From the NCBI GenBank assembly GCA_017882455.1, contig JADGPL010000006.1:62001-126000 (forward strand): a stretch of 64,000 nt of DNA. The letters are read 5' to 3'. Under the pieces are notes generated by a model. It ran no database searches and was not told the origin of the DNA. It was given only the letters and a program-made list of their open reading frames with translations. This document shows, piece by piece, positions 49,524 to 55,004 of this stretch (position 1 is its first letter; each line of letters starts with the position of its first letter). The stretch comes from Solirubrobacteraceae bacterium (lineage in GTDB: Bacteria; Actinomycetota; Thermoleophilia; Solirubrobacterales; Solirubrobacteraceae). The translations under genes and the position numbers were made by a program.

Positions 49524-49763
49524 ATGAGCACCACCATCAGAGTGAGCGAGCCGACCCGAGATCGCTTCGCCAGGTTGGCGCAGGCGACTGGCCGTTCCAT
49601 GAGTCAGCTGGTTGATGAGGCCGCCGATGCGCTGGAGCGGCGTGTGTTCTTCGATCAACTCTCCGCGCGCTATGAGGTCCTACGCGCAGACCCGGACGCA
49701 TGGAGCGAGATCGAGGCCGAGCGCACTGGTGAGAGCGTGGCGCTGCGCGACCGCTCCTCGTGA
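49524..49763 (+). CDS. RHH-type antitoxin of a MazF toxin
   Basis: 79 residues. TTIRVSEPTRDRFARLAQATGRSMSQLVDEAAD is a ribbon-helix-helix-like start and the acidic C-terminus (DPDAWSEIEAERTGES) is typical toxin-binding tail. It overlaps the toxin start as GTGA, the usual TA arrangement. Acts as repressor and toxin neutraliser. Confidence 0.88.
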   Translation: MSTTIRVSEPTRDRFARLAQATGRSMSQLVDEAADALERRVFFDQLSARYEVLRADPDAWSEIEAERTGESVALRDRSS

Positions 49764-50098
49764 GCCCCCGCCGGAGTGAGGTGTGGCTGGTCGACTTGGG
49801 CGACCCTGTTGGGCGGGAGCAGTCGGGCAGGCGACCCGCCGTCGTTGTCTCGGCTGATCCGCTGAACGAAAGTCGCGCCGGCGTTGTCGTCGTGGTCCCG
49901 ATCACGACGACCTATCGTGGCCTGCCGTCTCATGTAGAGATCGACCAAGGTGGTTCAGGGCTCGACGAGGTGAGCTACGCAAAGTGCGAGGACGTCAAGT
50001 CCGTCTCTGAGCAGCGTCTGATTAGCCGACTCGGCGTCGTAGGTGACGAAGTCATGTTCCAGGCCACTCGCGCGCTGCGTTTCCTGCTCGACCTCTGA
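49760..50098 (+). CDS. MazF-family endoribonuclease toxin
   Basis: 112 residues, family length. Starts SPRRSEVWLVDLGDPVGREQSGRRPAVVVSAD, then VVVVVPITTTYRGLPSHVEI and EVSYAKCEDVKSVSEQRL, all characteristic of PemK/MazF. It cleaves mRNA at short sequences. Start GTG 49760 overlaps the antitoxin. First of three TA modules within 3.5 kb. Confidence 0.92.
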   Translation: MSPRRSEVWLVDLGDPVGREQSGRRPAVVVSADPLNESRAGVVVVVPITTTYRGLPSHVEIDQGGSGLDEVSYAKCEDVKSVSEQRLISRLGVVGDEVMFQATRALRFLLDL

Positions 50099-50395
50099 GC
50101 GTCGCCGGATCGAGCTCCAGCAGCCGCTCGGCCTCCCGCACCTGCACACCGGTGGCATGAACCGCTATCGCATCTCGATCGCTCCGACCTTTGTCTCGAA
50201 TGGGCTTGTGCGCCTCGAAGTCCTTATTCAGGACCTCGTCGAAGATCGGGCCGTGCCCGACCATGCGGGACCAACACCGTCAGAGAACTCCTCGGCGAGA
50301 TCCCGCTGCAATATCCGTGACCAATAGCGGGAGCTGACGCGGGAGCACGTTTTGTGTGGCCAGGACCGCCTAGACTTGGTCTCGGAGGTCACGCG
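50099..50395. other. gap between two TA modules
   Basis: 297 bp without a convincing gene. A minus-strand frame from 50264 to 50052 (MVGHGPIFDEVLNKDFEAHK) is open but overlaps the MazF gene end and resembles nothing known; it may be a remnant. Confidence 0.5.
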
Positions 50396-50575
50396 ATGTC
50401 AGAGCCAGCCGCGAGCAATGATCACATCGAGCGGGCAAGCGCCCAGTTCTGGAACCCTCCCTCGCTGGAGGAGCTGATGGCCGATGTCGAGCCGCTCGCG
50501 CCTGACGAGCACTTCGACATCCCCGGCGTGACCGACGAGGAGTGGGATGTGTTCGTGGCGGCACTCGACGAGTGA
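50396..50575 (+). CDS. small antitoxin of a PIN toxin
   Basis: 59 residues, strongly acidic, reading FWNPPSLEELMADVEPLAP and GVTDEEWDVFVAALDE. It lacks a clear DNA-binding fold; the SLEEL and EEWDVF segments look like toxin-contact helices. It overlaps the PIN gene by GTGA. A start at GTG upstream in frame is possible. Confidence 0.75.
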   Translation: MSEPAASNDHIERASAQFWNPPSLEELMADVEPLAPDEHFDIPGVTDEEWDVFVAALDE

Positions 50576-51003
50576 TCGCAACCGTTCTCGTCGACACGAA
50601 CGTCTTCACCGCCCGTTTGCGGGAGCGCTCACCGCTCGCCACGAGCTATGCGAAGCACCTGTTCGGGCAGCGGATCGCGCTCGCCCCGCAGACGGTGGCC
50701 GAGGCCCGCTATGGCGTGCTCAGCGCCGGCTGGGGCGCGGCCCGGGTGGAGCGCCTCACCCGTCTGATCGAGCGCGCGCGCGCGCTGCCGGTTGACATCG
50801 ACACGATCGAGGCCGTCGCCCAGCTGCGGAACGAATGCCGGCAGACGGGGCACGGTCTGCACCAGCGAGGCCACAACGCCGACCTGTGGATCGCGGCCAC
50901 CGCGATCCGCTGGCGTATCCCGCTCGTCGCCCACGACGCCATCTTCGACGGCTGCCCCGGCCTCGAGCTCCGCACAGAGCTCGACACGCAGCCCACCGGC
51001 TGA
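50572..51003 (+). CDS. PIN-domain (VapC-type) ribonuclease toxin
   Basis: 143 residues from GTG 50572. PIN acidic residues: D in VLVDTNVF, E in TVAEARYG, D in NADLWIAATAIRW and the last D in AHDAIFDGCPGL. This is a Mg2+-dependent RNase of the VapC class, toxin partner of the upstream small protein. Confidence 0.9.
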   Translation: MIATVLVDTNVFTARLRERSPLATSYAKHLFGQRIALAPQTVAEARYGVLSAGWGAARVERLTRLIERARALPVDIDTIEAVAQLRNECRQTGHGLHQRGHNADLWIAATAIRWRIPLVAHDAIFDGCPGLELRTELDTQPTG

Positions 51004-51051
51004 GCCAACGCGAAGCGATCAGCCGGCCCGGGCGGACTCGGTCTTGGCGGC

Positions 51052-51639
51052 GTGGGGGACCGGCATCGGCAGCGGTGGGGGATTGGCGACGCTCTGGTCG
51101 AGGTACTGGCGGACTCGAGCGGTGGAAGCCGAGCCGGGGCGTTGATCCCGAGCCCAGCGGCGTTCGCGGGTTCGTACAGGCGCGCATCGCCGCACGTCCG
51201 CGAGATCGACATGCTCCCGTTGCTGCGCGAGATCCTGACCGAGCACAAGGCCGCCAACGCCACCGGCCCCAACGACCCGATCCTCACCACCCGCCACGGC
51301 AACGCCCGCAACCGCCACAACCTACGCCAGCGCGTCGTCGCCCCAGTCGCAGCCAAGGCAGAAGACCTGCTCGCCCAGCGCAGCGGCCAGCCGCTCCCTC
51401 ACGGGATCACCCCGCACAAGCTCAGGCACACGTTTGCCTCGGTGCTGTTCGCGATCGGCAAGGACCCCACCTACGTGATGCACCAGCTCGGGCACGCCGA
51501 CCCTGCGTTCACGCTGCGGGTGTACGCGCACATGATGCGCCGCAGCCCCGAGGAGCGCGAAGCGCTCAAGGCGCTCGTCGAAGGCCACGACTGGACGCTG
51601 GGCGAAGACACCGCGGAAGCGTCAGCCGAGCAGCGGTAG
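51052..51639 (+). pseudogene. 3' remnant of a tyrosine-type integrase
   Basis: The readable C-terminal core includes REIDMLPLLREILTEHK, HKLRHTFASVLFAIGKD (HxLR) and LGHADPAFTLRVYAHMM (H..Y). The first catalytic arginine region, the arm-binding domain and the SAM-like domain are missing; the 5' sequence is a low-complexity frame without these motifs. A recent degenerate integrase, consistent with an old mobile element that entered near the tRNA. Confidence 0.75.
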
Positions 51640-51710
51640 GCCCGCCACACCATCCGCGATCGCCCGCAACGCCTCCGCAGCACCGTGGCGAAGCTGGGCA
51701 CACAGCAGGC

Positions 51711-51992
51711 TCAGGGCTGGAGTTTCAGGCTGCCCCGGAGCCTTTGCTGGACATCTTGCCAAGCTGCGTCGAGAGCCTGCGGCGGAGTCTTGCCAGCCCC
51801 CTGGCCTAGTGTCGTTCCAAGAGAATCAGCAGCCGTGACGGAGAAATCCCCTCCGTCACGGTTGCGACACAGCGTGAATCTGACAGTGACCGTCTTCTTC
51901 TCGTTGGGCGTCAACGCGGCCGAGGTCGGGCTCGCTTTCATCGGACCTCGGCCGGTACCGAAGATCGCGGTGAACCTCTCCTCGGAAGACAC
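51711..51992 (-). CDS. hypothetical small protein
   Basis: 93 residues from a GTG at 51992; reads RFTAIFGTGRGPMKASPTSA, VTVRFTLCRNRDGGDFSV and DAAWQDVQQRLRGSLKLQP. No family recognised. Coding appearance is moderate. It lies opposite to the end of the integrase remnant. Confidence 0.4.
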   Translation of the reverse strand: MSSEERFTAIFGTGRGPMKASPTSAALTPNEKKTVTVRFTLCRNRDGGDFSVTAADSLGTTLGQGAGKTPPQALDAAWQDVQQRLRGSLKLQP

Positions 51993-52372
51993 GATGGAAG
52001 CCTTTCACATGGCTCACCCAAAGAGCGGACCGCCCGTCAGGACCCCGATCGGTACCGCTGACCTCACCGAGCTCGTCGGACAGCGCACTGGCCAGAAGAC
52101 CCTGCAAACACGGGGCTGCTGACCGGTCCAGACTCGCCACAACCCCCCGCTGCTGCCTAATCGCTGCCCAATCCCAGAGGCCACCGCTCACGTCAAACCA
52201 ACAAAAAACCCCGCATTCGCGGGGTCTTTCATATCGGGGCGAACGGCTAAGGTCGGCTATCTAGAGCCGATTTCGAGCCATCTGCGGTCCGTTTGCGGTC
52301 TTCGAGACAGTCCCGATCCGGCGACCGAGGTGGCGCCAGGCTAGGTGATAGGGGCTATGCTACCATGCCACT
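51993..52372. other. gap within the island
   Basis: 380 bp with a strong terminator-like hairpin at 52209-52228 and no gene. The segment 52232-52241 shares ten bases with the 3' end of the tRNA-Pro; probably chance. Confidence 0.5.
52209..52228. terminator. bidirectional rho-independent terminator
   Basis: CCCCGC-ATTC-GCGGGG with AAAAAA upstream and TCTTTC downstream. On the minus strand the stem is followed by TTTTTT, so it is best oriented for minus-strand transcripts such as those from the nuclease/TIR operon reading through; on the plus strand a weaker T-run follows. Confidence 0.7.
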
Positions 52373-52582
52373 ATGGCTAAGAACCTGACTGTTCGCCTGG
52401 ACGACGACCTCGCGTCCGACACGGAGGCGTTGGCACGCGCCGAAGGCAAAAGCCTCAACGAGACGGTCAAGCACGCCCTCGCCGAGGCGGTACAGCGCCG
52501 GCGGGAAGACCCCGAGTTCAAGGCGCGTGTACGTCGCATCATCGAAGAGGATCGCGAGCTGCTAGAGCGGCTCGCCAAGTGA
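52373..52582 (+). CDS. RHH antitoxin of a Doc toxin
   Basis: 69 residues. KNLTVRLDDDLASDTEALARAEGKSLNETVKHALAEAV is a ribbon-helix-helix start; the charged tail (DPEFKARVRRIIEEDREL) is the neutralising part. GTGA overlap with the toxin gene. Usual Doc partners are Phd-type; an RHH partner is an alternative arrangement. Confidence 0.85.
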   Translation: MAKNLTVRLDDDLASDTEALARAEGKSLNETVKHALAEAVQRRREDPEFKARVRRIIEEDRELLERLAK

Positions 52583-53013
52583 GCATTTGCTACGTCGAGC
52601 TCGCCGACTACCTCGCCATCGCCGCCGAGATAACCGCGCTCGACACCAACACACTCATAAGGGTCACGAAGGTCGATCTCGCCGAGTCAGCGCTGCACGC
52701 GCCGGCAGCCAGTTTCGGCGAGACCGAGTTCTACCCCGACTTCATCGACAAGGCCGCGGTTCTCGTCGTGCGCCTGGCCAAGAACCATCCACTGCCCGAC
52801 GGCAACAAGCGAGCGGCGTGGGTGGCGCTCCGCCTGTTCATCGAGATCAACGACTGGACATGGCAGACCACACCGATCGTCGATGACGCCGAGCAGGCAG
52901 TGCTCGCTATCGCTGCCGGCACATGGAGCCAAGACGACGCGAGCGCCTGGCTACGAAGTCACCTCGCGCCGGCGTCGACGGTCTTGCCGCCGGATGAGCC
53001 AGGGAGGCAGTGA
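52579..53013 (+). CDS. Doc/Fic-family toxin
   Basis: 144 residues from GTG 52579. The active-site Fic loop is HPLPDGNKRAAWVAL (HxxxDGNKR), with LDTNTLIRV and DIDKAAVLVVRLAKN-like helix before it. Doc phosphorylates EF-Tu; Fic enzymes AMPylate. The short length and the D/GN variant fit Doc. Convergent with the nuclease gene. Confidence 0.9.
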   Translation: MSICYVELADYLAIAAEITALDTNTLIRVTKVDLAESALHAPAASFGETEFYPDFIDKAAVLVVRLAKNHPLPDGNKRAAWVALRLFIEINDWTWQTTPIVDDAEQAVLAIAAGTWSQDDASAWLRSHLAPASTVLPPDEPGRQ

Positions 53014-53018
53014 ATTGG

Positions 53019-53999
53019 CTAGGTGAAAAGCTGGTCGGCGTTGTCGGTGAAACCGTCGCCATCGCGCCAGATGACAGCGATGCGTTGACCGTGCAGAAGG
53101 TCGATGAGGTCTTGTGAGGGGCGCGCTTCAAGCAAGGTCGCGCGTCGTGGAGTCGGGTCAATCAGTCGCGCGTAGTCGGCAAGCTGTCCGATTGCCATAC
53201 GCACGTCGCCGCGCGAGTTTCCAGCCTTCGCCTCGATGAGCTGGCGGCGCGTTTCGTTATACAGGTCGCTATACAGCGGGCCGCCGGCTTCAGGGACGGT
53301 GATCTTGTGTCGGCAGACCGAGTCACCTTGGCGTGTTAGGTGGGCGGCGAAGTCAGCCACGAGCTTATTCTCTTCGCGCCGCGCCCTGACGACCTCGTTC
53401 TTTGTCTTCGTGTCGTAGGCTTCGACCTTCCCCTGTTCGATCGGTATTGGATCGATGACAGGGCGCGGCAGGGGTTTAGTTGGACTGCGGGGTCTCTTGA
53501 CCGGGGCTTGCAGCCCTTCTAGCAAGGACTGGGCGCGCTCGCCCTGCTCGACTGTGAGATGGCGGTAGCCCTTCTGATTGAGCGAGCTGCGCATTACGCC
53601 GATCTCTTCCACCATCGGCGCGATCTCGGGATCAACGGCGTTTAGACAGCGGATGGCTGTCACGACACCCCACCTATCGCCCTCGCGCGGACGGGCGCCT
53701 TCTCGATCTACGAGGGGCGGATCCCAGCGAGGCTCCTCGGTGACTTCAAGGATCGCCGGACACTTGCGGACAAGCTCAGGGGGACAACCTCGCGCATTGG
53801 CGATGCAGACCACCAGCCTGTCTCCCGTCGCGTACCTGGGACCGTGGGGCGGCAGCACCTCATTGAGCGAGGGACGAGGCCTCTTGGTCCAAAGCGAGGA
53901 GCTATTGCCAGGCGCATCGGTTACCCACGGCGCCTCTTTCCAGTACGAGGCATCTTCCCGCGAGTCCGCCCAGTGTACGAGCTTGAGCCACCAGCCCAT
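53019..53999 (-). CDS. PUA/EVE-like plus PD-(D/E)XK nuclease, candidate restriction enzyme
   Basis: 326 residues. Residues 1-160 look like an EVE/PUA-superfamily reader by pattern (YATGDRLVVCIANARG, CPAILEVTEEPRWDP, WGVVTAIRCLN, IGVMRSSLNQKG, LTVEQGERA). A proline-rich linker (165-190) follows. Residues 210-326 carry a PD-(D/E)XK core: D245 in LYSDLYNETR, then E256-A-K258 in LIEAKAG, then RMAIGQLADYARL at 267-279. EVE-type domains read modified bases; such a fusion would be a modification-dependent endonuclease. It is encoded downstream of the TIR-like gene. The EVE assignment is tentative; the nuclease core is firmer. Confidence 0.75.
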   Translation of the reverse strand: MGWWLKLVHWADSREDASYWKEAPWVTDAPGNSSSLWTKRPRPSLNEVLPPHGPRYATGDRLVVCIANARGCPPELVRKCPAILEVTEEPRWDPPLVDREGARPREGDRWGVVTAIRCLNAVDPEIAPMVEEIGVMRSSLNQKGYRHLTVEQGERAQSLLEGLQAPVKRPRSPTKPLPRPVIDPIPIEQGKVEAYDTKTKNEVVRARREENKLVADFAAHLTRQGDSVCRHKITVPEAGGPLYSDLYNETRRQLIEAKAGNSRGDVRMAIGQLADYARLIDPTPRRATLLEARPSQDLIDLLHGQRIAVIWRDGDGFTDNADQLFT

Positions 54000-54051
54000 C
54001 CTTCAACCCTATTCGTTCGCCTGGCGGCGACCTCAGCCGATGACCCCGGAC

Positions 54052-54546
54052 CTACTCGAGCTCCCGAAGCAGTTTCGGTTTCCAGGCCCCGGCGCCGTCG
54101 ATCGGTATGTAGGCGATCCCGTCCGTGTCGGAGGGAAGCTCGACGCCATCCTCATACAACACAGCGACGTGGTCCCGTCCGAGGCGCCCATAGAAGAACC
54201 CCATCTCGAGGACGACGTTCTGGCGGGCGCGTGGATGGAGGACGTGCTCAGAAGTCCCACCTACATCGTCCGCGGTGAGCAAGATCACGGCCCAGCCCGC
54301 CTCGGACGCGTGCCGTTCGAACTTCTCAATCAGCGTCTGACCCCTATTCGCCTGTTCGTGGAGAATGACCGCCTTACGTCCGCCTTGCTCGTTGATCGTG
54401 CGCGCGACCTGTTCGCGGACGAGTTCGTTGTGGCCATGGACCACAAAGACGCCTGTAGGCACTGGCTTCTCCTCTGGCTCGGGATCGGTCGCCAAACGGG
54501 ACGGCATCTCTGCGAACTCGAGCCGTTCGACTAGCGACTGCAGCAC
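54052..54546 (-). CDS. TIR-like PF10137-type nucleotide-binding/NADase protein
   Basis: 164 residues starting at GTG 54546, the only start between an upstream in-frame stop and the domain. TGVFVVHGHNE (strand 1), ILHEQANRGQTLIEKFERHA, VILLTADDVGG, QNVVLEMGFFYGRLGRDHVAVL and YIPID match the TIR-like PF10137 group (CAP12/Pycsar-type, predicted NADase). E114 in VVLEMGF is the catalytic-glutamate candidate. The N-terminus is only 30 residues, so a usual extra N-terminal domain is absent. Next gene on the strand, 52 bp downstream, is the nuclease. Probable role: NAD+ depletion on infection. Confidence 0.82.
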   Translation of the reverse strand: MLQSLVERLEFAEMPSRLATDPEPEEKPVPTGVFVVHGHNELVREQVARTINEQGGRKAVILHEQANRGQTLIEKFERHASEAGWAVILLTADDVGGTSEHVLHPRARQNVVLEMGFFYGRLGRDHVAVLYEDGVELPSDTDGIAYIPIDGAGAWKPKLLRELE

Positions 54547-54682: not shown

Positions 54683-54757
54683 CCACGAACACCCACGAAC
54701 ACAAGCGAACAGCGGCCCACGAGTCCCAGCGTCTTCGCGGCTGCTCGCTTGTGTTCG
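54683..54757. repeat. tandem and inverted repeats beside tRNA-Pro
   Basis: CCACGAACAC is repeated twice in tandem (54683-54702). An 18-base arm at 54696-54713 pairs with 54740-54757 (one mismatch) around a 26-base loop, and GTTCGCGGCTGTTCGCGG follows. Such clustered short repeats next to a tRNA look like integrase arm-binding sites of an attachment region. The rest of 54547-54782 holds no gene. Confidence 0.5.
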
Positions 54758-54782
54758 CGGCTGTTCGCGGACTTAAGGATTA

Positions 54783-54856
54783 TCGGGGCGCCGAGATTCG
54801 AACTCGGGACCTCACCGACCCGAACGGTGCGCGCTACCAGGCTGCGCCACGCCCCG
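54783..54856 (-). tRNA. tRNA-Pro(CGG)
   Basis: Complete cloverleaf on the minus strand: acceptor CGGGGCG pairing with CGCCCCG, D-arm GCGC...GCGC, anticodon stem CACCG/CGGTG with loop TTCGGGT (anticodon CGG, proline), T-stem CCGAG/CTCGG with loop TTCGAAT, discriminator A. 74 nt, CCA not encoded. The 3' end faces the TIR/nuclease island, the usual orientation of an integration site. Confidence 0.95.
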
Positions 54857-55004
54857 ATGTCCCCCCGCAGTATCACACAAGGCCGCTCCCGCCCGAGTGC
54901 TGCCGCTCGGGCCATCCCGCCTGAGCGTTCCTCCTCGACGCCGCCACGTGGGGCGTTCCCGTCTGCCCACCACCACCCCCGCCCCAGCGCTATGGTCGCA
55001 ACCG

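Follow-up and report, generated by a model that had tools for sequence, protein, structure and literature searches.

A predicted EVE-PD-(D/E)XK modification-dependent nuclease next to a truncated TIR ORF in a Solirubrobacteraceae genome

From the analysis of a 64,000-nucleotide stretch of a Solirubrobacteraceae genome (in the following called the window), we conclude that a 326-aa protein encoded near a tRNA-Pro gene is probably a stand-alone type IV modification-dependent restriction enzyme, and that the TIR ORF beside it is most likely a remnant with no relation to it. The relevant features, in window coordinates, are as follows.

49524-50098: antitoxin and PemK/MazF
50354-51003: antitoxin and PIN
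51052-51639: tyrosine integrase fragment
52373..53013, plus strand: toxin-antitoxin (TA) module with RHH-like antitoxin (52373-52582) and Doc/Fic toxin (52579-53013), convergent with the nuclease ORF; context, outside the enzyme
53019..53999, minus strand: nuclease ORF, EVE and PD-(D/E)XK domains, 326 aa, start codon ATG
53511..53999, minus strand: EVE-like (PUA superfamily) reader domain, residues 1-163, assigned by the profile of its relatives, their PF01878 matches and fusions to PLD nucleases
53034..53414, minus strand: PD-(D/E)XK nuclease domain, approximately residues 196-322, from the AF2 model and fold comparison
53226..53267, minus strand: catalytic core D245 ... E256-A-K258, invariant across 40 homologues from several phyla
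54052..54546, minus strand: TIR ORF (PF10137), 164 aa, start codon GTG, clipped at both ends, probable remnant of PDC-S35 type
54205..54207, minus strand: candidate catalytic Glu of the TIR, E114, invariant in alignment A7
54683-54770: 34-nt inverted repeat, 85% complementary, directly 3′ of tRNA-Pro
54782..54857, minus strand: tRNA-Pro (CGG), boundary of the variable region according to the tRNA-Pro/NIF3 linkage in nine same-genus genomes

The TIR ORF lies between the nuclease ORF and the tRNA-Pro gene. As a first, sequence-only reading of this DNA had stated, both ORFs are on the minus strand and separated by 52 bp. The nuclease ORF has a fair ribosome-binding site, AGGG, about 8 bases 5′ of its ATG, and before the GTG of the TIR ORF no Shine-Dalgarno sequence was recognisable. 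Their GC content is 62.6-62.7%, with a higher value for the chromosome on the NIF3 side.

Reader and nuclease domains of the 326-aa protein

The 326-aa protein yielded no meaningful match in Pfam, NCBIfam, PADLOC or PHROG. One Pfam hit, Pertussis_S2S3, was rejected as a chance match (E 0.2, below the cut-off, spanning the linker and the start of the nuclease). Searching 396 genomes of the phylum and 232 of the order with this protein returned two separate sets of relatives, one aligned over residues ~165-325 and the other over residues 2-165. No full-length relative was confirmed by single-sequence search of viral and genome collections.

The EVE fold of the N-terminal domain is assigned by profile transitivity, because the domain itself gave no Pfam EVE match when scanned and its single-sequence model was uninformative (pLDDT 35); the full-length model was unreliable before residue 121. 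A profile made from 13 relatives of the domain matched the solved EVE protein PH1033 (2HD9) with an E-value of 2.7e-5 and, weakly, MJECL36, another solved EVE protein. Pfam EVE (PF01878) was matched by 7 of these 13 relatives. A wider alignment of the domain was too diverse for scanning. Judged by profile, the front domain is homologous to EVE domains, which bears out the PUA/EVE-like reader tentatively suggested in the sequence-only reading.

Residues 2-165 also correspond to the C-terminal domain of PLD-nuclease (PF13091) proteins in genomes of the same order (L017, L018 and L021), with 28-36% identity between the EVE-type domains. These proteins represent a second reader-nuclease architecture with a common reader. 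At another locus, L019, the PLD part cannot be read in the frame of the EVE-type domain and may be broken. Further relatives of residues 2-165 are small, apparently stand-alone proteins found throughout the class, and a search of plasmids and viral contigs for the N-terminal domain found nothing.

The C-terminal domain has the fold and the catalytic residues of a PD-(D/E)XK nuclease. AlphaFold (AF2) modelled this part with a pLDDT of 95-98 and with the order alpha-beta-beta-beta-alpha-beta, as in PD-(D/E)XK enzymes. Structure comparison (VIA Z 8-10.5) placed Can2/Card1 at the top and also yielded XisH-like proteins, NucS/EndoMS and McrC; PaqCI was another good fold match, and the Foldseek list includes MspJI and McrBC. 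In an alignment of 40 sequences D245, E256, K258, R263, R267, G271, Q272, D275 and Y276 are invariant, among them the D245...E256-A-K258 core that had been picked out from the sequence at the outset.

This nuclease domain is widespread. When 84,980 collected genomes were searched, a relative was confirmed in 216 out of 240 candidate stretches; the best 80 of these 216 belong mainly to Actinomycetota, but also to Chloroflexota, Deltaproteobacteria and alphaproteobacteria. Viral contigs add 12 loci with relatives of the domain. The window holds the only fusion of this EVE domain with this nuclease domain among the fetched loci. Elsewhere, in about 100 homologues, other fronts precede the nuclease, mostly one with the motif YGGRxQGGIxPS; some homologues carry SRA-like fronts (PF02182 in L131), and the fronts of others are unassigned. 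Because the EVE-type domain joins PLD, and the nuclease domain joins SRA-like and other fronts, readers and nucleases appear to be swapped as modules.

Two further groups of homologues were observed. In L003 (G278) and L126 (Rhodococcus), the nuclease domain lies behind a common unassigned front, SFFVLWNGS...RxLI, possibly another reader that lacks a Pfam model. Large linear Streptomyces plasmids encode homologues at L012 6001-6435, L013 6001-6261 and L014 6001-6327. These look catalytically dead, because E-x-K and Q are lost (e.g. DLYDLTRNELVVARATAARPVVREAIGEL); those of L013 and L014 are followed by a DUF4007 gene at a distance of no more than about 70 bp.

The truncated TIR ORF and its surroundings

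The TIR ORF matches PF10137 (CAP12-PCTIR_TIR) with 120.3 bits against a curated cut-off of 24.7 (E 6e-35), and E114 is invariant in 10 TIR homologues, so that both the family and the candidate catalytic residue named in the sequence-only reading hold. Its proposal of a TIR effector stands for the domain and the Glu but not for the remainder, since the ligand-sensing domain is absent and both ends are clipped. The ORF covers positions 88-251 of the 264 in the PADLOC PDC-S35 model, lacking ~80-88 N-terminal and ~12 C-terminal residues of the family, and it falls short of the full length of PDC-S35 proteins (~230-280 aa). Before the VHG motif it has 32 residues, compared with a median of ~136 in 72 viral homologues, and after it 132, compared with a minimum of 137; practically all of them extend further at both ends. 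What is left is the TIR core only, uninterrupted by frameshifts and with its catalytic Glu.

A frameshifted N-terminus lying in a different frame was rejected, as tblastn with full-length homologues detected no remnant upstream in any frame. There is no room for the missing front, because the tRNA-Pro gene, 236 bp upstream of the TIR ORF, and the 34-nt inverted repeat fill the space. No cyclase is encoded among the neighbours, as had been noted before. A CBASS origin was rejected because a search of the whole draft genome for CD-NTases (PF18144) found none; for Pycsar-type cyclases, coverage is that of the neighbouring genes. Based on these comparisons, the ORF is probably a remnant of a PDC-S35-type gene, and the TIR appears to be non-functional. 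A different arrangement was seen on the Arthrobacter plasmid pYA7-1b (L043 2683-5596), where two further genes, one with another TIR domain and one with a HIT domain, come after a PF10137 TIR gene on the same strand.

As the core is intact without frameshifts and the Glu is kept, translation of the TIR could still begin at an internal start. The ORF might be a functional, stand-alone minimal TIR that is independent of the nuclease, starting at GTG 54546 or at the ATG at residue 14. An active minimal TIR is conceivable because potent NADase activity is known for sensor-less relatives in the CAP12/Pycsar family, amoeba TirC among them (PMC13142454). However, both ends are shorter than in practically all 72 homologues and the place of the missing front is taken by tRNA-Pro, and we consider this explanation unlikely.

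The surroundings are variable. In nine same-genus genomes the tRNA-Pro gene is kept beside NIF3 and the DNA past the tRNA is unrelated. In the window, this variable stretch has a lower GC content than the NIF3 side and contains three TA modules in a row (PemK/MazF, PIN and Doc) together with the tyrosine integrase fragment, all within 49524-53013. The 34-nt inverted repeat has no counterpart at this position in the nine same-genus genomes inspected, and a search of the window for a duplicate of the tRNA-Pro end (att site) found none. The genes scanned between 46 and 55.9 kb encode an SNF2 helicase, toxins, the integrase fragment, the TIR and NIF3, with no methyltransferase among them. The locus is a TA-rich turnover hotspot beside tRNA-Pro in which unrelated genes pile up, and this setting explains the adjacency of the TIR and nuclease ORFs.

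Proposed mode of action and alternatives

The 326-aa protein combines what characterises type IV enzymes: an EVE reader (by profile), a fused nuclease with intact catalytic residues, and no adjoining methyltransferase. We propose that incoming DNA is bound by the EVE domain at a modified base, probably a modified cytosine and possibly another base, and that the PD-(D/E)XK domain would then cut the bound DNA using D245, E256 and K258 with a divalent metal. Such an enzyme would act without a methyltransferase and without a second gene. The modified-DNA target, DNA cleavage and a role in defence are suggested by analogy, because EVE-HNH enzymes have been described (VcaM4I, PMC7897488) and readers are exchanged with SRA-like ones. 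The TIR gene of PDC-S35 type may have been clipped during island exchange beside tRNA-Pro, and its remaining ORF is probably no working effector of the EVE-nuclease.

An RNA target is conceivable because standalone EVE proteins act in other processes. The EVE-nuclease might act on modified RNA, e.g. tRNA, as a toxin or stress nuclease and not on phage DNA. Can2/Card1, which head the fold matches, belong to the CRISPR ancillary nucleases, and these cut nucleic acids rather loosely. EVE domains also occur in many non-restriction contexts (PMC7641849). On the other hand, homologues join the nuclease domain to SRA-like domains, which are readers of modified DNA, and NucS/EndoMS, McrC and PaqCI, also good fold matches, are DNA enzymes. 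We regard an RNA target as improbable.

The sequence-only reading had further joined the two ORFs into a functional pair, a claim it staked on homologues being found together. They were not: a PF10137-family TIR was present in 0 of the 117 loci with the nuclease domain that were fetched (together 1.6 Mb, with overlap between some of them), and the nuclease domain in 0 of 99 TIR-homologue loci (20 cellular and plasmid, 79 viral). Co-occurrence of TIR and nuclease is absent from the related loci examined, which counts against the pair. A literature search found no paper that connects a TIR with a type IV reader-nuclease, which is of little weight as evidence. The reading as a two-gene operon fails because the TIR is clipped, the two do not co-occur and the tRNA-Pro spot is variable and TA-rich. 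A unit consisting of the EVE-nuclease, for detecting and cutting modified phage DNA, and a sensor-less short TIR that depletes NAD+ once triggered would agree with the common strand, the short gap, the alike GC content below that of the NIF3 side and the intact TIR core with E114, but it is very improbable given these survey counts, the missing N- and C-terminal TIR parts and the GTG lacking a recognisable Shine-Dalgarno sequence. A locus-specific unit of this kind, with DNA cutting by a modification-sensing EVE nuclease coupled to NAD+ depletion by a minimal sensor-less TIR, is likewise very improbable.

Comparison with known systems

The TIR ORF resembles the PADLOC PDC-S35 / PF10137 TIRs (relatives of Cap12 and PycTIR) in its core and catalytic Glu, but lacks the ~80-88 N-terminal and the last dozen residues, and has no cyclase nearby. 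The negative result for the TIR pair illustrates that genes lying side by side near a tRNA hotspot give weak grounds for assuming a system.

For the 326-aa protein, the closest descriptions concern EVE fusions. Bell et al. (2020, PMC7641849) reported EVE-PD(D/E)XK and EVE-PLDc fusion proteins and interpreted both as putative type IV enzymes. The protein in the window is like the former in combining EVE and PD-(D/E)XK domains in one protein, whereas none of the Pfam, NCBIfam, PADLOC and PHROG models matches its nuclease domain. Because no library model matched, this nuclease may represent a family outside those of PMC7641849. The EVE-PLDc fusions (PMC7641849; L017, L018, L021) have an EVE-type domain homologous to that of the window, but they carry a PLD nuclease and their two domains stand in the opposite order. 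VcaM4I consists of an EVE domain (1-147), a linker and a nuclease (179-309) (PMC7897488). With VcaM4I and TspA15I, EVE-HNH enzymes from the same study, the window protein shares the N-terminal EVE domain, the helical linker and the C-terminal nuclease encoded by a single gene; its nuclease is PD-(D/E)XK, whereas theirs is HNH.

The reader-nuclease architecture has already been described, and the protein in the window adds a divergent example whose nuclease family no library model covers. Since relatives of this nuclease domain occur at 216 places in 84,980 genomes, with interchangeable readers in those examined, the EVE-PD(D/E)XK protein is a useful starting point in the search for actinobacterial type IV enzymes with new base specificities.
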